Positions 22,242-44,749 of a stretch of DNA of 64,000 nt are shown here, in pieces. Each line of letters opens with the position of its first letter. Positions within the stretch are counted from its first letter, which is position 1. The position numbers and the translations under genes were made by a program. Source of the DNA: Alkalispirochaeta americana (lineage in GTDB: Bacteria; Spirochaetota; Spirochaetia; DSM-27196; Alkalispirochaetaceae); the NCBI RefSeq assembly GCF_900156105.1, contig NZ_FTMS01000013.1, positions 1 through 64,000 on the forward strand, written 5' to 3'. The notes under the pieces are model-generated. The model was not told where the DNA came from, searched no databases, and saw nothing but the letters and a program-made list of their open reading frames with translations.

Positions 22242-23735
22242 TCATGTCCTCTCCGGGGCGGTCTCGACACGGTTGCGCCCGCGCTGTTTTGCCAGATACA
22301 GGGCCTGATCCGCCTCGGTATAAACCCGGTGGAAGAGGTCCTCGTCGCTCACGCCGTCCTGAACACGCAGCGGGGCCACACCAAAGCTCGCCGTCACCGG
22401 GGAAACAGCCTCCCCCCCGGGAACAGGACAGTCCATGATCGCACAGCGGATCTTCTCCGCAACCTGGATCGCCCCCTCCGGGTTTGTGTCGGGCAGGAGG
22501 AGCGCAAACTCCTCTCCTCCGAACCTCCCGGCGTGATCGGTGCTCCGCAGCTGTTCCTGGATCACCCGGGAGACCCCCACGAGAACAGCGTCTCCCCCAG
22601 GGTGTCCGCAGGTATCGTTGATATTCTTGAAGTAGTCCAGATCCAGGATAACCAGGAAGGCCGGCTCTCCCGTCCGCCTCGTCCGGGCAAGTTCGTTCTG
22701 AACAAGGGTATTAAAGCGCAACCGGTTATTCAGACCAGTCAAGGAATCCTGACCGGCAAGTTCTTCAAGCCGCCGAGCCTGCTCGTTTATTTGCTTGCTC
22801 GCCCCCCGAACGATCAGGATGACCACCGCAGAAAAGAATATTGTGAGAACACCACCAGCCAGGAGGCTGTTGAGAACCGTGGCCCGGGCCCGGGCCGCCA
22901 CAACCTCCCCTGTCTTCTCCAGCACCAGGTAGGTGTTCCACTCGTCGGAATGGCTCGCCCAGATCAGGGGACCACCCACCCCTCGGGGCTCCAGAACCAT
23001 ATAGTCTTTTCCGACCTGGTTCCGGGAAAGAAGCTCTCTTACGGGGATTCCCCAGACATCGTCCATATTTGTTCCGGACCGGACCAGCTACTCATCCCCG
23101 GCATAGACAATCCGCCCGTCACGCCGCGCCATGTAAACGTTTACACCCGGAAGCTGACCAAAGGAAAGGAGCGTTCGCGTGAAATCCTCCGCCAGAACTC
23201 CTCCGCCGGTTACACCCAGAAAGGAACCATCCTTGTCGAAAATAGGCACATTGACCCACATCAGGACCTGGCCCTTTTCAGGATAGTACCAGGCGTCGAT
23301 ATTCGTCTCTACCAGGCTATCCCGATACAGGTAATACCAGCCGTCGCGATCCTGATTATCCGGATCAAGCACCAGGGTGCGCCCGTCAGTACTGTAAAAG
23401 GTCTCGGTGAGATCACTCACAATACTGGTTTCGATCATGTCGAAGCGGGTCCGGACGCTCTCGAGAAAAAAGCGAAGCTCCTCTTCATCCTCCTCGCCCC
23501 CCCGTATCCAGTCACGAAGAAGGCCGTCCCGGAGCAACTCTTCCCCCACCCGATGATACTGCGAGGCAGTGCGATCGAGATGAGCTGCAACGGCCATGCC
23601 CAGAGGACGAATCTCGTGGTCACGAATAAAGTTGCGTGTCCGCTCACCTTCCTGCAGAGCATGAAAACCCGTAAGGGCACAGAACCCCAGAATTATCGAC
23701 AGGCTGATCACAACAAAGAACCGGGTCTTGATCAA
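22242..23735 (-). pseudogene. Membrane-anchored sensor diguanylate cyclase (dCACHE-like + GGDEF), interrupted by an amber codon
   Basis: Two halves lie in the same frame, split only by TAG at 23088-23090. The first half (TTG start with AAGGAG) has an N-terminal membrane helix and a periplasmic sensor with NQDRDGWYY and FDKDGSFLGVTGGGVL, typical of Cache domains. The second half finishes the sensor, then a membrane helix (ILIVRGAS end), and a complete GGDEF domain: DSLTGLNNRL, DLDYFKNIND, active motif RFGGEEFALLL, and the inhibitory RSTD five residues before GGEEF. If read through, it would make cyclic di-GMP in response to a periplasmic ligand. The break may be a recent mutation or a sequencing error; the second half alone also has internal start codons. 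Confidence 0.8.
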
Positions 23736-30035: not shown

Positions 30036-31292
30036 ATGAGCAGAATACTCGTCGTAGACGACGACAGAGCGAGCCTCCTTCTGATCGAGAAGGTCCTGAA
30101 ACACGCCGGTTACGAGGCGAGCTGTCACCTCTCCCCCTCGTCGGCCCTGGAGGCCTTCTGTCTGGATACTTTTGATCTGATCCTTTCTGATTACTACATG
30201 CCCCAAATGAACGGAGACCAGTTCCTGGCCGAGGTTCGGTCCCGAAACCAGGAGATTCCCTTTATCTTTCTGACGGGAAACACCGACATCCAGCTGGCCG
30301 TGGCTCTGGTAAAACAGGGCGCCGACGACCACATTACAAAACCCCCAATCCCCGAAAACCTTCTTTTCCGGGTGCAGAAAAATCTGAAAGAGAGGGAGCA
30401 GCAGCGCCTGATCCGCCAGGTGGAAGAAGAGCGAAAGTTGATGGAGCTGGAGAACAAGCAACTCGCCAACTGGCGCCAGCTCTATGCGGCCAAGGACATC
30501 ACCCAGACAGAGCAAATGGTGGGGCTCCTCTCGCGAACGGTCAACCAGGCCGGGGGGTTCATGTGGCTTGATCTCCTGGAAAGCGTTGTAACCCCCACCG
30601 ACGATGGCACCGGTGTGGTTCTGGGGTCCGAGCTCTACACCATGATCCTCACGGCAGCCAGGGCACAACGGGATATCTTTCAGTACATCACCTTTATCGG
30701 GGAGCTGGACAAGCTGGAGCTCAATCTGCAGAGGCACCCCACCCAGGCGGTAACGCAAGAACTCTTTGGTTTTTGCAGAGAGCTTTTCCCGCACCTCACG
30801 GCCGATTCCGGGAGATCCCTCATAGAGGTGCCGCCCCGGACCGCTTTGCCCGGCACGGTGACTCTGGACCGGGAAAAAATGAAGGATGTCCTCCAGGAAC
30901 TTTTGATCAATGCCCTGAAATACTCCCCCGAGGGATCCCGGGTCATTCTGGAGATGGGGCTGGCCGTATCACCCGAGACGGGCCAGCAAATTCTCGAGAT
31001 CATCCTGCAAAACGATTCAAAGAAGAGCACCACCAGGGATAAATCGGGGCAACCCATTGTGGGCATTCCCTACGATTACAGCGAACTGGTCTTCGATATT
31101 TTTTATACCATCGAGGCCTTCCCCGTCCGAAGCGACCAGGAGAAATGGGGCGATGGTACCGGGCTATACGTGGCACGAAAGTTGGTGAAGCGCCATGGCG
31201 GATGGATCTCCGCAGGAAACGGAATCGACTACACCGCTGACCCTCCCCGGTCTTTTGTGCGCTTTACCCTCAAGTTACCCCTGAGCGAATGA
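30036..31292 (+). CDS. Response regulator with C-terminal HATPase-like domain
   Basis: The 418-residue protein begins with a complete receiver: acidic pair VVDDDRAS, phospho-Asp in LILSDYYMP (about residue 50), Thr in FLTGNT and Lys in HITKPP. A coiled segment (about 120-160) is followed by a helical part with no recognisable phospho-His box. A Bergerat-type ATPase domain then carries the N-box ELLINALKYSPEG and a G-box GDGTGLYVARKL. A kinase-type ATPase without a DHp histidine suggests either an anti-sigma-like Ser/Thr kinase or a kinase using an unusual phospho-acceptor. With CheY, STAS and CheA genes downstream it may belong to a mixed phosphorelay and partner-switching circuit. Confidence 0.82.
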   Translation: MSRILVVDDDRASLLLIEKVLKHAGYEASCHLSPSSALEAFCLDTFDLILSDYYMPQMNGDQFLAEVRSRNQEIPFIFLTGNTDIQLAVALVKQGADDHITKPPIPENLLFRVQKNLKEREQQRLIRQVEEERKLMELENKQLANWRQLYAAKDITQTEQMVGLLSRTVNQAGGFMWLDLLESVVTPTDDGTGVVLGSELYTMILTAARAQRDIFQYITFIGELDKLELNLQRHPTQAVTQELFGFCRELFPHLTADSGRSLIEVPPRTALPGTVTLDREKMKDVLQELLINALKYSPEGSRVILEMGLAVSPETGQQILEIILQNDSKKSTTRDKSGQPIVGIPYDYSELVFDIFYTIEAFPVRSDQEKWGDGTGLYVARKLVKRHGGWISAGNGIDYTADPPRSFVRFTLKLPLSE

Positions 31293-31813: not shown

Positions 31814-32137
31814 ATGAAGCCTCTTCAAATTCAGCGAGAACCAGACCGAACGGTGATTACCATCAGGGGCAACTTGAACTATGCCGCCGCGCCGGAACTG
31901 CATCAGGCTCTGAAGGAAGCCCTCCCCCTTCAGGGAACAATCCACCTGCGACTAACCGGGACAGATGCCCTGGATCTGGCAGGCGTTCAGGTACTGCTCT
32001 CGCTCAGTCGCACCGCCCGGGAGGCGGGCCAGGCCTGTACCATTGACCCGGGTGAGGCCGCGCCGAGAATAGAGAAGATGCTTCGTTTTGCCGGGCTAAA
32101 ACCCATAGGAACAGCTGACCATGTCGATGCACGCTGA
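31814..32137 (+). CDS. STAS-domain protein
   Basis: The 107-residue protein has the STAS fold of anti-anti-sigma factors (residues 1-100: VITIRGNLNYAAAPELHQAL, then IHLRLTGTDALDLAGVQVLL). In SpoIIAA-type proteins the loop is D-S-x-G with a phosphorylatable Ser; here it reads DLAG, so the Ser is Leu and classical phospho-switching is not possible. STAS proteins without this Ser are known beside CheA/CheY genes. The stop overlaps the cheA start by 17 bases, indicating tight coupling. Confidence 0.85.
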   Translation: MKPLQIQREPDRTVITIRGNLNYAAAPELHQALKEALPLQGTIHLRLTGTDALDLAGVQVLLSLSRTAREAGQACTIDPGEAAPRIEKMLRFAGLKPIGTADHVDAR

Positions 32138-34226
32138 CCCGCTGGAAACCTTCCGTGATGAGGCCCAGGAGCTACTGGCAGCACTGGAGCAGAATCTCCT
32201 TGCCCTGGAAGAGAATCCCTCCGATCACGAGATGATAGGGGCGGCCTTCCGGAATCTTCATACTCTCAAGGGATCTGCCGGGATGTTTGGCATGGATGTT
32301 CTGGTAGCGCTGGCCCACCAGGTGGAATCAGTCTTTGCCCTGGTGCGGGATGGAAAGGAGCAGGCCTCGCAGGGGCTGCTCTCCCTGAGTTTCCAGGCAA
32401 AAGATATCCTGGCAGAGCTCCTGACGACGCACCCTCCGGCGGAGGATATCCGTCAACGGGCAGCAGAACTGCAGGCCGCTTTTGCCGTCTACGACCCTGC
32501 CGGAAAGGGCCCTTCCGGGAAGGCTGGCGCGAACACTGATGAGACGCCCTCCACAGGAAGCACCAGGGAAGCTCGCCCGGAACGAACCTGGCGCATCCAC
32601 ATTGCTCCTCAACCCCGGTTTCTTCGTCACGGGAACAACCCTCTCCTGCTCTTGCAGGAACTGACAGACCTGGGAACATCCCTGGTGATGGGCTTCTCTG
32701 ATCAGGTCCCACCCCTGGAAAAACTGGACCCCCAGGTGTGCTACCTGACCTGGCATGTACTGCTTACCACCACGGCAACGGAACAGGAACTGAAGGATAT
32801 CTTCATTTTCGTGGGCGACGACGCCCTGGTAGAGTTCACCCTGGTGGACGACATGGGCGAAGCAGACATTCCCTACAAGCGCCTGGGAGAGATCCTGCTG
32901 GAACGGGGCGATATCGACACGGCCTCCCTGGAAGCGGCTATCAGCGAGCGAGCTTTCCTGGGAGAGAAACTGGTGGAACAAGGCTTTGTCTCTCCCGAGC
33001 GGGTACAGTCGGCCCTGGAAGAACAGCGCTACGTTCAGAAAAACCGGGAAAGCCGCCGTTCCGCCGAGGCAGGCTCCTCCATCCGGGTAAACACCGATAA
33101 GCTGGGTGCCCTGGTAAACCTGGTGGGAGAGTTCGTGGCGCTCCAGGCGCACCTGGCCCACACGGCCGAGGCCAGCGAGGACGATACCTTCCTCCAGATG
33201 AGCGAACAGATGAACCGCCTGGTGCGGGAACTCAGAACCACGGCGATCGAGATGAGAATGGTTCCCATTCAGCTCCTCTTTAGCGGGTTCCTCCGGCTGG
33301 TGCGGGATCTCTCCCGGGAACTGAAAAAAGAAGTTTCCCTGGTTACCAAGGGGGGCGAGACCGAGCTGGATAAAACGGTTATCGATCTTCTGAAAGATCC
33401 CCTGATGCACATTATCCGTAATAGCCTGGATCACGGCATCGAAACACCGGAAGAGCGGCGATCCCGGGGGAAACCTCCGGGAGGGACGGTAACGCTCAGC
33501 GCCGCCTACGCAGGAGCGCAGGTACTCATCACCATCGCCGACGATGGCGGCGGCATGGACGCCGACCGAATTCGTGCCAAGGCAGAGCAAAAGGGGCTCC
33601 TGGAGCCGGGGCAGGATTACCGCCAGGAGGAGATTCTGCAATGCATCTTTGCTCCCGGCTTTTCCACGGCAGAACAGGCAACAAACGTCTCGGGCCGGGG
33701 CGTCGGGATGGACGTGGTCCAGAAAAACCTGGAACAACTCTCCGGCTCAGTCCGGGTTACTTCGGTTCCCGGCAAAGGGAGCACGATCACCCTGCGGATT
33801 CCCCTCACCCTGGCCATTGTAGAGGGCTTGCTGGCAGGAATCGGAAACAACCTCTACCTCATCAACTTGAGCTATATCGAACGCTGCCTGGATCTGGCGG
33901 AGATCCCCCGGCGCAAGGGGGAGATGTTCTTCGACTACAACGGAGAGATTCTCGCCCTGCTGGATCTGCGGGAGTATTTTCGCCTCACTACAGATCAGCC
34001 GCCACCTCATCGCCACGTAGTGGTGGTTTCTGCAGGGACCCAGCGGATCGGCCTGGTGGTGGACGCTCTCCACGATACCTACCAGTCCGTTATCAAACCT
34101 CTGGGCAGCCTCTATGAAGGGGTTGAGGGTGTGGGGGGAGCGATCATTCTGGGAGACGGCACGCCCGCCCTGGTTCTTGATGTGGATCGCCTGGTCCGGC
34201 TGACCGAGCAGCCCTCTCCAGCCTGA
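32121..34226 (+). CDS. cheA: CheA-type histidine kinase
   Basis: The 701-residue kinase has the P1 Hpt domain with phospho-His at 47 (LHTLKGSAGMFG), a middle region (about 150-310), a P3 dimerisation segment (LGALVNLVGEFVALQAHL), the P4 ATPase with HIIRNSLDHGIE, DDGGGMD and GRGVGMDVVQKNL, and a P5 CheW-like domain at the end (about 560-695). The middle region replaces a usual P2: residues about 250-305 hold two repeats, RLGEILLERGDI and LGEKLVEQGFVSPE, similar to the N-terminal (MshEN-type) repeats of GspE/PilB ATPases. The gene overlaps the STAS gene and closes the operon. No receptor, CheW, CheR or CheB is nearby. Confidence 0.9.
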   Translation: MSMHADPLETFRDEAQELLAALEQNLLALEENPSDHEMIGAAFRNLHTLKGSAGMFGMDVLVALAHQVESVFALVRDGKEQASQGLLSLSFQAKDILAELLTTHPPAEDIRQRAAELQAAFAVYDPAGKGPSGKAGANTDETPSTGSTREARPERTWRIHIAPQPRFLRHGNNPLLLLQELTDLGTSLVMGFSDQVPPLEKLDPQVCYLTWHVLLTTTATEQELKDIFIFVGDDALVEFTLVDDMGEADIPYKRLGEILLERGDIDTASLEAAISERAFLGEKLVEQGFVSPERVQSALEEQRYVQKNRESRRSAEAGSSIRVNTDKLGALVNLVGEFVALQAHLAHTAEASEDDTFLQMSEQMNRLVRELRTTAIEMRMVPIQLLFSGFLRLVRDLSRELKKEVSLVTKGGETELDKTVIDLLKDPLMHIIRNSLDHGIETPEERRSRGKPPGGTVTLSAAYAGAQVLITIADDGGGMDADRIRAKAEQKGLLEPGQDYRQEEILQCIFAPGFSTAEQATNVSGRGVGMDVVQKNLEQLSGSVRVTSVPGKGSTITLRIPLTLAIVEGLLAGIGNNLYLINLSYIERCLDLAEIPRRKGEMFFDYNGEILALLDLREYFRLTTDQPPPHRHVVVVSAGTQRIGLVVDALHDTYQSVIKPLGSLYEGVEGVGGAIILGDGTPALVLDVDRLVRLTEQPSPA

Positions 34227-36302: not shown

Positions 36303-37781
36303 TTACTGAGTTCTTATACGCATCTTAATAACGACAAGAAAGATCACGCCCACCATCACCATCAAAAAAATTGCCAACGGATTTGTCAGCATATACTTAA
36401 GTAGCGAAACTCGTTGCGCACCTGCAATAGTCATTGCTCGCATTAAGTTGGTTTCAATAAGCCCTCCTAACACCAATCCGATAATGATGGGGGCTTGTGG
36501 AACACCTGTTTTTTTAAAAAAAGCCCCTACTATTCCTAACACAATGGCAACCAACACATCAAAGATATTGTTCCGCAGACTGTACGCGCCAAAAAGCGCG
36601 AAAACCAGTACCGGAGGAACGATATATTCCATCTTAATTTTTAGGATATAAGAGAAGTACTTGATGCCAAAAGCACCAATCAGAGTCATAGCAATCACAG
36701 TGAGCAGCATTCCATAGATAAAGATATACGCAACATCTGGACGGTTCACAAAAAGACTAGGACCAAGAATAATTCCGTGAATGATCAATGCACCTGCGAT
36801 AATGGCTGTTGTTGGGCTGCCCGGGACCCCTAACGCTAAAAGTGGCACCATCGATGTTCCCACAGTCGCGTTGTTGGCGCTTTCGGCGGCGATAATGCCT
36901 TCAGGACTCCCTTTCTCGAAAAGAGCAGGATTTTTTGAGGCCCTCTTGGCTTCCCCGTATGAAAGAAAAACTGCCAGTGTCGTGCCTACTCCCGGCAAAA
37001 GCCCCACAAAAGTGCCAATCATGGATGATTTTACCACCAAAATCTTATGTTTAAGAATTTCTTTAATCACCGACCTACGCGTAATCTCCTGATCTTTATA
37101 GACAACGGACTCATTTGCTTTTTTTCCGATATTTAAGAACATTTCTGCCAGGCAAAACAGCCCCAGCACCACAGGAACTACCGAGATTCCAGACCGAAGG
37201 TTCATATTACCTAGAGTAAAACGTTGAGAAGCCGTTATCATGTCAACGCCAATGGTACTGATAAACAGACCGAATGTGACAGCAAATAACGATTTGAAAA
37301 TATTTCCTTCTAAAGCACCGATAACTACCAATCCACTAAGAGCGATAAAAAACATTTCTGCCGGGCCAAACTTCAGCGCAAAGCGAGCCAGGGGAGGAGT
37401 GAAAAAAATCAGAATCAGAACCCCAATGAATCCTCCAAACATACTTGAAAAAATTGAATAATACAGTGCTTCTTTCGATCGGCCCTGCTTCGTCATGGGG
37501 TATCCTTCCATGGCTGCTGGTGCCGCAACCACATCCCCCGGGACATTCAGGAGGATCGCAGTAATCGAACCGCCGTACATCCCTCCCATATAGATTCCCC
37601 CAAGTAGCAAGAGTCCCAACTCAGGCCTCATGGTAAAAGTCAGGGGTAGCAAGAGCGAAATACCGATAGCTCCATTCAGTCCAGGAATGGCCCCGACTAC
37701 AATACCTATCAGAACACCGCTGAGTACAATCATCAATACACCGGGAGACATTAATCCCCAAAACAGCTGCATATTCTCCAT
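36303..37781 (-). CDS. tctA: Tripartite tricarboxylate-type transporter, large permease (TctA)
   Basis: A 492-residue protein with about 11-12 membrane segments and TctA landmarks: GAIPGLNGAIGISLLLPLTF near the N-terminus, GGIYMGGMYGGSITAILLNVPG, and the repeat in the second half, FVGLLPGVGTTLAVFLSYG and GVPGSPTTAIIAGALI. TctA forms the transport pathway, driven by an ion gradient, with TctB and the TctC receptor. Gene order tctB-tctC-tctA is unusual only in the wide spacing (115-135 bases). The unit is divergent from an RpiR regulator and sugar-acid genes, so the solute is probably a sugar acid rather than citrate. Base composition is AT-richer than the flanks. Confidence 0.92.
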   Translation of the reverse strand: MENMQLFWGLMSPGVLMIVLSGVLIGIVVGAIPGLNGAIGISLLLPLTFTMRPELGLLLLGGIYMGGMYGGSITAILLNVPGDVVAAPAAMEGYPMTKQGRSKEALYYSIFSSMFGGFIGVLILIFFTPPLARFALKFGPAEMFFIALSGLVVIGALEGNIFKSLFAVTFGLFISTIGVDMITASQRFTLGNMNLRSGISVVPVVLGLFCLAEMFLNIGKKANESVVYKDQEITRRSVIKEILKHKILVVKSSMIGTFVGLLPGVGTTLAVFLSYGEAKRASKNPALFEKGSPEGIIAAESANNATVGTSMVPLLALGVPGSPTTAIIAGALIIHGIILGPSLFVNRPDVAYIFIYGMLLTVIAMTLIGAFGIKYFSYILKIKMEYIVPPVLVFALFGAYSLRNNIFDVLVAIVLGIVGAFFKKTGVPQAPIIIGLVLGGLIETNLMRAMTIAGAQRVSLLKYMLTNPLAIFLMVMVGVIFLVVIKMRIRTQ

Positions 37782-37895
37782 CGACTCATCCTCCTGACGA
37801 GCGTCATCAGCAATTTTTCCGTTCAGTCGAGAGGACTTAGTTTCCTGCCAACTGAACGGATTTCAAAGCAAAGTGCAATAATCAATCAACATTAT

Positions 37896-38870
37896 CTAGA
37901 ATCGTTTTCGATTCCTTTCAATAACTGGCATCAGCACATTATTCGAACGTTGTAATGCATCGTTCACTTCCTGTCGGTTCATATATCGATAGGGCAGAGT
38001 GGCTATTTCAAATCTCTCCCGAAAATCAGGATCTGCACCAATGATATCTAGCGCTTCAGTAATAACTGTCAACACATTTTCTGGCGTACCTTTAGGAGCA
38101 ACCAACACACGGGAGACTCCCATTTCAAGATTGATTCCCTGTTCCTTAAACGTGGGTACTCCCGGAAACATTTCCATTCTATCAGCCGCCGCAAATCCTA
38201 TTGGATGTCCTCCAGCGTCAACTATTGCATTGTGACTCATGGAAGAAGTCGACGCCAACTCAATGTGGTTACCCAGTAATGTGTTCATCAAATCAGCGCC
38301 CCCCGAAAGAGTAACTGGTGTGGTTTCGATGCCAAGCAGATCTGAAAAAGCTAGCGCATGAAGCAGACCAAGAGCACCCGATTCGCCAATGGTGAGCCTT
38401 CCTGGATTTTTCTTTCCGTAGGCAATTAGCTGATCAATGGTTCGAAAACTACTCCCAGGTCCTGCAAATATACCCATGGGCATATCATCGAAGGATGCCA
38501 GGTATTCAAAACTGTCGAATTGAAACTCGGTCTCTCTGGTGTTTTCCAACACAAAATTATCGGGATATCCGAAGACCCCCAGCGTATAACCATCGGCATT
38601 GCTCCGCGCCATTTCGGTGATACCAATTTCACCACCAGCACCTTCCAGGTTAATCACATTGACTTGAACTCCCAGTTTCCTGCCCAGCGAGTCGGCGACA
38701 ATTCTTGCCACTGTATCACCACCACCGCCCGCACTGTAGGGGACAAGAATTCGAATGCTTTGAGCAGGGAAGTGACCAGTTTCAGTCGCACCATCCTCCG
38801 TCCTACCCCCTGCCGCTGCCACTGCCACTGCCAGTGTTGCCATGATAATCATCAATGCCATTTTCTTCAT
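37896..38870 (-). CDS. tctC: Tripartite tricarboxylate transporter receptor (TctC)
   Basis: The 324-residue receptor has a signal peptide (LMIIMATLAVAVAAAGG) and the TctC/Bug family sequence: IRILVPYSAGGGGDTVARIV, the NLEGAGGEIGITEMARSNADGY segment and AYGKKNPGRLTIGESGALG. Bug-type receptors bind carboxylates through two loop regions that contact the solute via waters. GGAGG precedes the ATG. It should deliver the solute to TctAB. The fold and role are certain; the ligand is not. Confidence 0.92.
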   Translation of the reverse strand: MKKMALMIIMATLAVAVAAAGGRTEDGATETGHFPAQSIRILVPYSAGGGGDTVARIVADSLGRKLGVQVNVINLEGAGGEIGITEMARSNADGYTLGVFGYPDNFVLENTRETEFQFDSFEYLASFDDMPMGIFAGPGSSFRTIDQLIAYGKKNPGRLTIGESGALGLLHALAFSDLLGIETTPVTLSGGADLMNTLLGNHIELASTSSMSHNAIVDAGGHPIGFAAADRMEMFPGVPTFKEQGINLEMGVSRVLVAPKGTPENVLTVITEALDIIGADPDFRERFEIATLPYRYMNRQEVNDALQRSNNVLMPVIERNRKRF

Positions 38871-40519: not shown

Positions 40520-41602
40520 ATGACCTTGCAGATCAAACCAGAGGGACACCTTGATTTCATGGCCCTGGGGGCCCTGGTACTTCGCCTGGACCCGGGCCTG
40601 CGCCCCTTCCACACCGCCCGAGACTTCGAGGCCCATGTGAGCGGGGGGGAATACAACTGTGCCGCCAACCTTTCGGACTGTTTCCAGCTCAAAACGGGAA
40701 TCGCTTCGGCCATGGTGGACTATCCCCTGGGGGATCTCATCAGGCGAAGCGTACGATCCATGGGGGTGACCCCGTTGTACAAGGATTTCGACCACAACGG
40801 TGTGACAGGACCAAATATGGCCACCGTCTTCAGCGACCGGGGGCAGGGAGTCCGCCCCCCCGTGGTGTTCTACAATCGTTCCAACGAGGCTGCCGCAGCC
40901 CTCAAGCCAGGGGATTTCAACTGGCAGGAGATATTTTCCCGGGGCATCCGCTGGTTTCACAGCGGAGGAATCTTTGCAGCTCTCTCGGAGACAACCGGCG
41001 AGGTAATCATCGAGGCTATGAAGGCTGCCCGCGAGGCAGGGACGGTCACGTCCTTTGATCTGAACTACCGGGAAAAGCTCTGGAATCTCCGGGGTGGCCC
41101 TGAAAAGGCCCGGGACGTGTTCCACCGGATCGTGGAACAGGCGGATGTGCTGGTGGGAAACGAAGAGGATCTTCAGATGGGACTGGGTATCAAGGGACCC
41201 AGCGTAACACAGAAGGAGCATTCCTCGCTGGACCCGGAGACATTCCTCTCCATGATAGACGATGTGCGCCAGCGCTATCCCCGCATGAAGGTGGTGGCCA
41301 CAACCCTGCGGGACGTTTCCTCCACCAACCGTCACCGCTGGAGCGCTGCCGCCTGGATACACGGAGAGTCCCTGGTTGCCCCTGTATGCGAACTCGATGT
41401 CCTGGACCGTGTCGGCGGAGGAGACGGCTTTGCCTCGGGGCTTTTTTACGGCTTGCTCTCGGGACAGAGTCCGGAAAATGCTCTCCGCACGGGGTGGGCT
41501 CACGGCGCGTTGCTTACCACCTTTCCCGGAGATACCACCATGGCCAACCGGGAACAGGTTCAGGCTTTTGCCGCAGGAGGCTCCGCCCGCATCCAGCGGT
41601 AG
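40520..41602 (+). CDS. PfkB-family sugar (acid) kinase
   Basis: The 360-residue protein is a ribokinase/PfkB-fold kinase, nearest in type to 2-keto-3-deoxygluconate or 5-dehydro-2-deoxygluconate kinases: N-terminal HVSGGEYNCAANLSDCFQLK, a middle TSFDLNYREKLW, and the anion-hole/catalytic motif DRVGGGDGFASGLFYGLL with the base Asp in GGGDG. AAAGGA precedes the ATG. Expected reaction: ATP-dependent phosphorylation of a sugar acid entering via TctABC. The following genes are 6-phosphogluconate dehydrogenases, so a gluconate-related substrate is likely, though PfkB kinases for plain gluconate would be unusual. Confidence 0.85.
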   Translation: MTLQIKPEGHLDFMALGALVLRLDPGLRPFHTARDFEAHVSGGEYNCAANLSDCFQLKTGIASAMVDYPLGDLIRRSVRSMGVTPLYKDFDHNGVTGPNMATVFSDRGQGVRPPVVFYNRSNEAAAALKPGDFNWQEIFSRGIRWFHSGGIFAALSETTGEVIIEAMKAAREAGTVTSFDLNYREKLWNLRGGPEKARDVFHRIVEQADVLVGNEEDLQMGLGIKGPSVTQKEHSSLDPETFLSMIDDVRQRYPRMKVVATTLRDVSSTNRHRWSAAAWIHGESLVAPVCELDVLDRVGGGDGFASGLFYGLLSGQSPENALRTGWAHGALLTTFPGDTTMANREQVQAFAAGGSARIQR

Positions 41603-41613
41603 GGGGAAAGATC

Positions 41614-43149
41614 ATGCACCACGCTACAGAGCGGGCCAGACCCGCTACGGCCCTGACCGGAATGAAAGAATCGCGCCTGGCCGAACTGGGAATCATCGGC
41701 CAGGCCGTAATGGGACGAAACCTTGCCTTGAACGCCTGCGAAAAAGGCATTCCCGTGGCAGTGTACGATAGAGAGGCTTCACTGATTCAGGCGGCTTCGG
41801 ACGAGGCGGAGGGGGCATTACCCTTGATCCCGGCCACTTCCCTGGAGGAATTTCTTTCGCTCCTGGAGAGACCGAGGAAAATTCTCTTCATGATCAAGGC
41901 CGGGAAACCCGTTGAGAACCTCCTGGAAGAGATTCTTCCCCATCTGGCCCCAGGAGATATCGTAATCGACGGCGGAAACAGCCATTACCAGGACACAGCC
42001 CGACGATGCACAGCCCTGAAGAACCGGGGAATCCGGTTTATCGGGGCGGGAATTTCAGGTGGTGAAGAGGGCGCCCGTTCCGGTCCCAGTATCATGCCCG
42101 GCGGGGACGAATCGGCCTGGCCCCTGGTGGCTCCTATTCTTCAGGCTTTGGCAGCGAAATCTCCCCGGGGAACATCCTGCTGCTCCTGGATTGGCCGTGG
42201 AGGGGCGGGCCATTTTGTTAAAATGATTCACAACGGAATCGAGTACGCCGAGATGCAGGCTATCGCCGAGGCATACCACCTCATGAAGGATCTCTTGGGG
42301 ATGAGCAACCAGGCCATGCACGAGGCGGTCTCCCTTTGGACCAGGGGGCCTCTCAAAAGCTACCTTCTGGAGATCACCGCCTCGATCCTGATCCATCCCG
42401 ACAGCGACGGCTCACCGTTACTGGAAAAAATACTCGACCAGGCAGGACAAAAAGGAACCGGGAAATGGTCAGTCCTGGAAGGGCTGGATCGGAATGTACC
42501 GCTCCCTTCTGTTGGAGCTGCTGTGTGTGCGCGACAGCTCTCATCTCTTCGGTCAGAACGGTGCCAGGCGGCTGATATCTTCGGGCGGATATCAGCGACT
42601 TCGTCACCAGCCTCACCCGGAAGCCTTGCAAAATCCGAGCCGGCCTCTCTTCTCCGGGACCTGGAAAAGGCCCTGCTGGCCAACAGAGTTGTGACCTACG
42701 CTCAGGGTTTTGAGGTGATCCGCGTCGCGGCACAGCAGGAGCAGTGGCAGATAGATCTGGCAGAACTTGCCCGTATCTGGACCAGGGGATGCATCATCCG
42801 AACGCCCCTTCTGGAGGATATTGCCCGGGCCTGCCACGCCGATCCATCCCAGACCAACCTGCTTCTGACCCCTCCCCTGGCAGAAATCCTCCGGGATGCC
42901 TCAGGAGGATGGCGGCGCCTCGTAGCGGCAGGTATCAGCGCAGAAGTTCCCCTCCCGGCTCTTGCAAGCGGGCTCACCTTCTTTGATGGCTACAAAAGCC
43001 GCACCCTTCCGGCAAATCTGATTCAGGCCATGCGTGACTATTTTGGAGCCCACCTGTATCAAAGAAAGAATGATGAACCGGGGAAGTACCACCACACGAA
43101 CTGGACAGGGGCCGGGGGAGCGGTTTCCTCGAGCCTCTATAATGCGTAG
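41614..43149 (+). CDS. gnd: 6-phosphogluconate dehydrogenase, NAD-type cofactor loop
   Basis: The 511-residue enzyme starts 11 bases after the kinase (AGGGGG before the ATG). It has GIIGQAVMGRNLALNACEKG, the substrate segment DGGNSHYQDTARR, ISGGEEGARSGPSIMPGG, and the catalytic Lys and Glu in GHFVKMIHNGIEYAEMQ. The all-helical domain and C-terminal tail (HTNWTGAGGAVSS) are present. At the end of the second beta-strand NADP enzymes have NRS/NRT; here it is Tyr-Asp52-Arg-Glu. An acidic residue at that place generally selects NAD over NADP. Immediately after it comes a second homologous gene with the NADP-type loop. Confidence 0.88.
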   Translation: MHHATERARPATALTGMKESRLAELGIIGQAVMGRNLALNACEKGIPVAVYDREASLIQAASDEAEGALPLIPATSLEEFLSLLERPRKILFMIKAGKPVENLLEEILPHLAPGDIVIDGGNSHYQDTARRCTALKNRGIRFIGAGISGGEEGARSGPSIMPGGDESAWPLVAPILQALAAKSPRGTSCCSWIGRGGAGHFVKMIHNGIEYAEMQAIAEAYHLMKDLLGMSNQAMHEAVSLWTRGPLKSYLLEITASILIHPDSDGSPLLEKILDQAGQKGTGKWSVLEGLDRNVPLPSVGAAVCARQLSSLRSERCQAADIFGRISATSSPASPGSLAKSEPASLLRDLEKALLANRVVTYAQGFEVIRVAAQQEQWQIDLAELARIWTRGCIIRTPLLEDIARACHADPSQTNLLLTPPLAEILRDASGGWRRLVAAGISAEVPLPALASGLTFFDGYKSRTLPANLIQAMRDYFGAHLYQRKNDEPGKYHHTNWTGAGGAVSSSLYNA

Positions 43150-43264
43150 ATTATTATCCGGAAGAACACCTGCAGAAGCAGATGGATCCGGAATACCGGC
43201 GGATCAGGAATTCCCCCGATCCGGGCATGCCCGGATGAACGAACCAGCAACAAAGGAGCCCAGA

Positions 43265-44749
43265 GTGTCAGGTAAAGCAGATACATCGAGAAAAGCAGAT
43301 ATTGGACTGATCGGACTGGCTGTGATGGGACAGAATCTTGTTTTGAACATGAACGACCGGGGATACTCCGTGGCCGTTCACAACAGAACTGTCAGCAAAA
43401 TGACGGATTTTCTTCAAGGCCCCGCAGCAGATCGCTCCATCCTTGGAGCCGAAACCCTGGAAGAACTGGTGGAACACCTCTCCTCACCCCGAAAGATCAT
43501 GATCATGGTAAAAGCCGGTGAAACGGTGGATACCTACATCGAAAGACTTCTGCCCCTCCTGGAGAAGGGCGATATCATCATCGATGGAGGCAACAGCCAC
43601 TACCCCGACACGGAGCGCCGAACAACCCTCCTTGAGAGCAAAGGCCTCTTCTACATCGGTACGGGCGTCTCCGGCGGAGAAGAGGGAGCGCGTCGGGGCC
43701 CCAGCATCATGCCGGGAGGGTCAAGCCAGGCGTGGCCGGCAGTGAAGACCCTTTTTCAGAAAATCGCCGCCAAAGCCGCCGATGGCACCCCCTGTTGCGA
43801 CTGGGTTGGCACGGGCGGTTCCGGGCACTACGTAAAGATGGTCCACAATGCTATCGAGTACGGCGATATGCAGCTGATCAGCGAAGCCTATCACATCATG
43901 AAAAATCTTCTGGGCATGAGCTGCGACGAGATGGCCCGGTGCTTCGACTCCTGGAACCGGGGGCGCCTGGAGAGCTACCTCATCGAGATCACCGCCGCGA
44001 TCCTTCGGACACGCGACGAGGACGGATCCCCACTGGTAGAGAAGATCCTTGATGCAGCAGGCCAGAAGGGAACGGGAAAATGGACCGTGGTGGATGCGGC
44101 GCACCTGGGGGTGCCCGTTACGCTGATCGCCGAGGCTGTTTTTGCCCGCTCCTTAAGCGCCCGCACAGACGAACGGCAACGAGCGGCCGCCATCCTGGGC
44201 GATACAGCCCCTGCCCTGCCCGATTTGAACGATTCGGAAAAAGCCCGGATTCTGGAAGATCTCGAGGCGGCGGTCTATGCGGCAAAAATCACCAGTTATG
44301 CGCAGGGCTTCATGCTGATCAGGGAAGCCGCCCGGGAATATTCCTGGGAGATCGATTACGGAGCGGTGGCAGGAATGTGGCGGGGAGGATGTATCATCCG
44401 AAGCGCCTTTCTGGAGGATATCACCGCAGCCTTTGCAGAAAACCGGGAACTGGAAAATCTGCTTCAGGCACCCTTTTTCTCCGGCATCATGGCAGAAACC
44501 CTCCCCTCGTGGCGACGAACCGCCCTGCGGGCAATAGAGGCGGGGCTGCCCATTCCGGCCCTCTCGTCGGCCTTGAGCTTCTTTGAAGGGTACCGGTCCG
44601 AGCGGCTTCCGGCAAATCTCCTTCAGGCCCAAAGGGATTACTTCGGCGCACACACCTACGAACGGGTGGACAGGCCTCGGGGAGAAGTCTTCCATACCAA
44701 CTGGACAGGCACGGGAGGAGACGTGGCCAGCGGCACCTATAACGCCTGA
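43265..44749 (+). CDS. gnd: 6-phosphogluconate dehydrogenase, NADP-type cofactor loop
   Basis: A 494-residue paralogue of the preceding gene: LIGLAVMGQNLVLNMNDRGY, loop His-Asn40-Arg-Thr as in typical NADP-dependent enzymes, DGGNSHYPDTERR, GVSGGEEGARRGPSIMPGG, catalytic GHYVKMVHNAIEYGDMQ and the C-terminal tail. The start is probably the GTG at 43265, with AAGGAG seven bases before it, not the first in-frame ATGs upstream. The 115-base gap from the first gnd holds no other gene. The reaction is oxidation and decarboxylation of 6-phosphogluconate to ribulose-5-phosphate, in the cytoplasm. Confidence 0.92.
   Translation: MSGKADTSRKADIGLIGLAVMGQNLVLNMNDRGYSVAVHNRTVSKMTDFLQGPAADRSILGAETLEELVEHLSSPRKIMIMVKAGETVDTYIERLLPLLEKGDIIIDGGNSHYPDTERRTTLLESKGLFYIGTGVSGGEEGARRGPSIMPGGSSQAWPAVKTLFQKIAAKAADGTPCCDWVGTGGSGHYVKMVHNAIEYGDMQLISEAYHIMKNLLGMSCDEMARCFDSWNRGRLESYLIEITAAILRTRDEDGSPLVEKILDAAGQKGTGKWTVVDAAHLGVPVTLIAEAVFARSLSARTDERQRAAAILGDTAPALPDLNDSEKARILEDLEAAVYAAKITSYAQGFMLIREAAREYSWEIDYGAVAGMWRGGCIIRSAFLEDITAAFAENRELENLLQAPFFSGIMAETLPSWRRTALRAIEAGLPIPALSSALSFFEGYRSERLPANLLQAQRDYFGAHTYERVDRPRGEVFHTNWTGTGGDVASGTYNA

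Follow-up and report, generated by a model that had tools for sequence, protein, structure and literature searches.

Can a chemosensory histidine kinase take cyclic di-GMP (c-di-GMP) as a direct input, through a domain built into its own chain? This question is raised by a CheA-type kinase of Alkalispirochaeta americana, encoded in the 64,000-nucleotide stretch of contig NZ_FTMS01000013.1 that we analyzed (hereafter, the window), for which two repeats resembling the c-di-GMP-binding MshEN domain at the N-terminus of GspE/PilB-type ATPases had been predicted at 32865-33040. Pfam recognized all four domains that identify a CheA, namely an HPt domain with its phospho-accepting histidine (Hpt, residues 8-100), the P3 domain (H-kinase_dim, 319-377), the ATPase (HATPase_c, 426-563), and the CheW-like P5 domain (CheW, 568-693), and both the HTLKG box and GRGVGMD are found in the sequence. 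The nearest named locus is that of A. alkalica, with 89% identity over the searched segment.

Features of the cheA locus (positions are those of the window)
Feature	Position	Strand	Basis
REC-HATPase protein, 418 aa, upstream of cheA, same direction	30036..31292	+	Pfam Response_reg, HATPase_c
CheY-type response regulator, 131 aa	31411..31806	+	Pfam Response_reg 6e-25
STAS-domain protein, 107 aa, overlapping the cheA start	31814..32137	+	Pfam STAS_2 2.6e-11; conserved gene pair
CheA-type histidine kinase, 701 aa (HPt, alpha/beta domain, MshEN-like repeats, P3, P4, P5)	32121..34226	+	Pfam
Conserved alpha/beta domain, residues ~156-245, ~90 aa, in the place of P2	32586..32855	+	Conservation across relatives
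MshEN-type motif I, residues 254-277 (R1 L2 G3 G10 L17 I21 R24)	32880..32951	+	NF053729; 5HTL/PilF alignment
Spacer, one residue (Ala278), canonical length five	32952..32954	+	
MshEN-type motif II, residues 279-302 (F1 L2 G3 G10 V17 L21 Q24)	32955..33026	+	NF053729; 5HTL/PilF alignment
P3 dimerization domain, residues 319-377	33075..33251	+	Pfam PF02895

Both repeats are present, and together (residues 254-302, 32880-33026) they fall inside the predicted span; motif I reads RLGEILLERGDIDTASLEAAISER and motif II reads FLGEKLVEQGFVSPERVQSALEEQ. Their kinship with MshEN, for which an HMM search had been proposed as a check, was confirmed by the NCBIfam model NF053729 ("c-di-GMP motif, MshE-related"), which matched the whole CheA above its cutoff (E = 5.1e-10, 39 bits, cutoff 38), the isolated repeat segment at E = 2e-12 (46.7 bits), and 18 of 18 relatives tested. 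A phmmer search of the PDB with the repeat segment alone retrieved Thermus PilF (2e-7) and MshE (5HTL, 0.0085), and a profile of the family retrieved PilF (4e-22), MshE (2e-7), and PilB (3e-7). Among Pfam models, the repeats matched DUF4388 only, with a score below its cutoff. Collectively, these sequence comparisons firmly support homology of the repeats to the c-di-GMP-binding MshEN domain. A chance repeat is ruled out by the matches to NF053729, PilF, and MshE, which lie far above chance, and a recent insertion is ruled out by the occurrence of the same architecture across the order and beyond.

The position of the repeats within the protein is not the one proposed. They had been placed where P2 usually sits, but the stretch ahead of them is occupied by a separate conserved alpha/beta domain. 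The repeats are an addition between this domain and P3, from which motif II is separated by ~17 residues. Replacement of P2 by MshEN can therefore be dismissed. The consensus of the alpha/beta domain (TxRIxFxP...NPLLLLxELxELG...LDPExCYxxWxIxLTT...IRDVFIFVED) is kept in nearly all relatives, and Trp, Cys, and FxF positions within it are invariant in this CheA lineage. Neither Pfam nor a PDB profile search gave any match for residues 150-250, P2 models and structures included, and the domain is thus at most a putative P2; its position and apparent alpha/beta make-up fit, and its sequence suggests a P2-like alternation of strands and helices.

With regard to the conserved ligand residues of MshEN, the expectation was upheld for most positions and failed for two. 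MshEN is defined as two 24-residue motifs joined by a 5-residue linker (Wang et al. 2016, PMC5013675). Contact positions R1, L2, and G3 of motif I and L2', G3', L21', and Q24' of motif II are kept in the CheA (primes denote motif II). Glycine occupies position 3 of both motifs (G256 and G281), and both leucine triads are present (L255, L270, I274 and L280, V295, L299), with conservative changes at two of the six positions (I274 and V295). At position 24, Gln is found in motif II (Q302) and R277 takes its place in motif I; at position 1, motif I has R254 and motif II has F279 instead of Arg, Lys, or Leu. In addition, the spacer is one residue long rather than five, giving a unit of 49 residues rather than 53, and the alignments to the matching PDB proteins (PilF, MshE, and PilB) invariably contain a short gap, a few residues long, where motif I gives way to motif II. 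Since these defining features (the spacer, Gln24 of motif I, and position 1 of motif II) were tested and found to be absent, we class the repeats, on their residues, as an MshEN-derived variant and not as a canonical MshEN.

How much these departures matter can be gauged in part from published work. According to PMC5013675, the glycines are essential, changes of Arg9 or Gln32 in MshE cost at most ~fivefold in affinity, and the isolated MshE repeat domain, devoid of MshEN_C, binds c-di-GMP at 0.35 uM; in PilF, where position 1 is Lys/Leu, the affinity for it is 6 nM (PMC11731258). By this mutagenesis, R277 and F279 could be tolerable, and the loss of the spacer would be a serious departure; the published affinity data are silent on a spacer of one. 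The same paper (PMC5013675) describes a non-binding MshEN in XpsE, with the changes G11V, I19R, L29R, R38G, G40L, L54H, L58C, and Q61V, and none of these eight was present in the CheA repeats.

Given the homology and the residues kept, we tentatively favor, at somewhat less than an even chance, the reading that the MshEN-derived helical module of residues 254-302 acts as a c-di-GMP input in this CheA, part of a non-flagellar, STAS-linked chemosensory system. The nucleotide would bring the contacts of motifs I and II together in a pocket that is rearranged and lies just over the dimer helices of P3, and its binding would shift the activity of the kinase or the transfer of phosphate to the neighboring CheY; we infer all three elements, i.e., the binding, the rearranged pocket, and the effect on kinase output. 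Binding by the CheA repeats is plausible in itself, with chances close to even. There are proven c-di-GMP binders among the homologues, and since position 1 and the Gln at position 24 contact the ligand in MshE, the conservation of these two positions is easier to explain if a ligand is bound.

Structure prediction weighs on the other side. An AlphaFold model of residues 252-309 from the single sequence (pLDDT 88) comprises three helices (255-261, 267-286, and 292-307), where MshEN is a four-helix bundle, with MshEN helices 2 and 3 merged across the missing spacer, although single-sequence models favor long helices; residues 153-343 modeled alone gave a pLDDT of 37, too low for use. Fold searches with the 58-residue model returned generic three-helix matches only (best E 2.9 in Foldseek, best Z 5.8 in VIA); MshEN was absent from these matches, from which no difference in fold can be concluded. 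Guanine 1 is held in MshE by the packing of Leu39, with which helix 3 begins, against two leucines of helix 2, Leu25 and Leu29. The predicted merged helix would part L2' from L17/L21, so that a single chain could not build the known MshEN pocket. A spacer of one, the fused helix 267-286, and an intramolecular pocket thus opened would together argue against a c-di-GMP input, and any pocket might be shared by both chains of the CheA dimer, if there is one at all.

Two pocket arrangements would accommodate the shortened spacer. Proteins are known to become domain-swapped when a hinge is shortened and, given the loss of the hinge and the CheA P3 dimer just downstream, motif I of one chain could pair with motif II of the other, yielding two inter-chain c-di-GMP pockets above P3. 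We regard this model-based arrangement as distinctly unlikely; if true, it would amount to a nucleotide clamp by which, throughout an entire lineage of CheAs, a chemosensory kinase takes its reading of c-di-GMP directly. We found no paper on MshEN domain swaps in the open-access literature. The other arrangement, a form of the c-di-GMP input and not exclusive of it, is that the normal intramolecular MshEN pocket survives, with helix 2 ending one turn earlier, a tight turn leading into helix 3, and the leucine clusters still forming. Ser/Gly/Asn are enriched at position 22, and so is Pro as the first residue of motif II (95% in the group with a spacer of -2, described below), residues typical of helix ends that hint at a helix break, but the single-sequence model, for all its bias, has one continuous helix here, and we consider a surviving pocket unlikely.

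Profile matches were found in 146 of 296 Spirochaetota genomes, a tally that includes PilB-type ATPases and matches confined to the CheA portion. Among the 99 parsed CheA sequences with a spacer of <=2 or >=4, its length was 1 in 57, 2 in 6, and 5 in 21, the remaining sequences having other values; it was 5 in 16 of 16 PilB sequences. A sample centered on Pseudomonadota gave matches in 86 of 249 genomes, many of them in CheA, with a spacer of 1 or, in 23 sequences, -2. One Pseudomonadota CheA sub-branch (L154-L179) combines the spacer of -2 with a Pro conserved as the first residue of motif II and with loss of motif I positions 23-24. A scan of viral contigs for more CheA sequences to align found none. 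In a tree of the P3-P5 core, nearly all CheAs with a spacer of 1 or -2 fell into one 81-member branch (SH-aLRT 92, quick method). CheAs with a canonical spacer lay outside it, the exceptions being two spacer-4 paralogs, both from the genome of the window, and a distant spacer-1 protein (L203) lay outside the main short-spacer branch. The short spacer (1 or -2) is thus the mark of essentially one CheA branch, shared by Spirochaetota and Pseudomonadota, and its near confinement to this one large branch indicates that the shortened form is old and stably kept.

Across 70 distinct sequences with a short spacer, motif I has G3 and L6 in 100% and R/K at position 1 in 93%, and Q24' is found in 99%; the motif parser weights the final Gln and so is slightly biased toward Q24', but a MAFFT alignment independently shows Q24' to be invariant. 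Position 24 of motif I is Gln in 46% and Q/K/R/H in 69 of the 70. Gln24 of motif I occurs in 32/70 short-spacer versus 32/35 long-spacer sequences (Fisher p = 4e-6, uncorrected for phylogeny), a test that overstates the evidence because the compared sequences are related. This relaxation of Gln24 alongside the short spacer, and the absence of positions 23-24 from the Pseudomonadota sub-branch, would argue against a c-di-GMP input.

Alternatively, the repeats could be a degenerate MshEN that no longer binds a ligand and instead acts as a stiff helical link, setting the distance and angle between the HPt and alpha/beta domains and the P3 dimer. The deletion of the spacer, the loss of Gln from motif I and of a basic residue or Leu from motif II position 1, the fused helices of the AlphaFold model, and the persistence of spacers of 1 and -2 within one lineage all point this way, and non-binding MshEN domains are known (e.g., XpsE, PMC5013675). 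For a connector, however, a near-invariant RLG and Q24' and a position 24 limited to Q/K/R/H are hard to explain, and most contact residues are kept in the spacer-1 forms. We judge such a degenerate connector a serious possibility, though a somewhat doubtful one.

The genes around cheA bear on a further explanation. The window has these genes in the order CheY, STAS, CheA. The genome encodes five CheA-type P3 domains, and the four non-flagellar CheAs all carry the repeats, each following a STAS-type gene (three recognized by Pfam STAS, the fourth only by a family profile built here). The CheA without repeats adjoins flaA, cheX, cheY, and a CheW-CheR fusion, a neighborhood that identifies it as the flagellar CheA. 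Its operon (FlaA, CheA, CheW-CheR, CheX, CheY; L180:4053-5414, L180:7980-8981) thus holds the genome's only CheA devoid of MshEN repeats, and its CheW and CheR form one 453-aa protein. Among spirochaete loci that belong to the short-spacer branch and have sufficient flank, a STAS gene directly precedes cheA in 52 of 52, as opposed to none of the four checkable loci with a spacer of 2 or 5. This linkage, and an Arg newly conserved at position 9 of motif I, mainly in short-spacer forms (76/92 versus 4/35 long ones), would fit if the repeats were a protein docking site, for instance for the STAS protein encoded upstream, rather than a nucleotide receptor. Most short-spacer Pseudomonadota loci, however, have no STAS gene directly before cheA in the flank examined (in most of the Pseudomonadota examples inspected, cheY holds that place). 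We consider a docking site improbable, with a small share of the likelihood.

The c-di-GMP input had also been linked to a GGDEF gene 9 kb away. The gene is real (22242-23066, minus strand, E = 2.7e-40), but its nearness carries little weight because the genome has 21 GGDEF domains. GGDEF proteins are encoded in 32 of 32 other genomes tested that have a short-spacer CheA, which is weak support given that GGDEF genes are common in free-living bacteria; their presence leaves the c-di-GMP reading possible and is no proof of it. No GspE/PilB-type protein of the window's genome matched the motif model above the cutoff. Elsewhere in this genome, a GAF-GGDEF protein (L182:6948-8024) is encoded convergently right after an MshEN-CheA paralog, nearer to it than the window's GGDEF gene is to the window's CheA.

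Compared with the MshEN domain of V. cholerae MshE (5HTL), the CheA repeats share two tandem 24-residue motifs in the same order, with RLG/LG, G10, the hydrophobic positions, and the final Gln of motif II. They differ in the spacer (1 versus 5), in R277 versus Gln32 at the end of motif I, in F279 versus Arg38 at the start of motif II, in the lack of MshEN_C, and in their location inside CheA rather than at the N-terminus of an ATPase. The best PDB match, GSPII-B/C of Thermus thermophilus PilF, likewise tolerates a non-Arg residue at position 1, but PilF is a traffic ATPase with a longer spacer and both Gln residues in GSPII-B. In other Spirochaetota, canonical-spacer MshEN CheAs (e.g., L080, L088, and L091) also have their repeats ahead of P3; unlike the window's CheA, they have a spacer of 5 and Gln24 in both motifs, and they belong to separate CheA branches. 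L080, the one of the three that was checked, has no STAS gene before cheA.

Fusion of MshEN to CheA is not new: Wang et al. (2016, PMC5013675) mention it in a single sentence and list it in a supplementary table. In the text of that paper we found no description of the short spacer, its lineage, the STAS linkage, or any function of MshEN-CheA. We found no paper on the function of MshEN in CheA in the open-access literature, and as far as that literature was searched, the shortened, lineage-specific, STAS-linked form seems to be undescribed. If c-di-GMP binds, chemoreceptor signals and the messenger of the motile/sessile switch would be joined in one polypeptide, with no PilZ go-between, and in four paralogous systems of one cell. 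If it does not, MshEN annotations in CheA that pass the NCBIfam cutoff should not be taken to mean a c-di-GMP receptor. Either outcome bears on a CheA lineage present in at least two phyla.

Two further observations concern other parts of the window. As read from the translations, a gene for a TctA-like membrane protein adjoins one for a TctC-like binding protein at 36303-38870, so closely that a TctB gene would not fit in between. Farther along the window, tandem overlapping ORFs at 41386-43149 and 43034-44749 each give a full-length match to 6-phosphogluconate dehydrogenase, and the pair adjoins genes for a PfkB-type kinase and an RpiR-type regulator.
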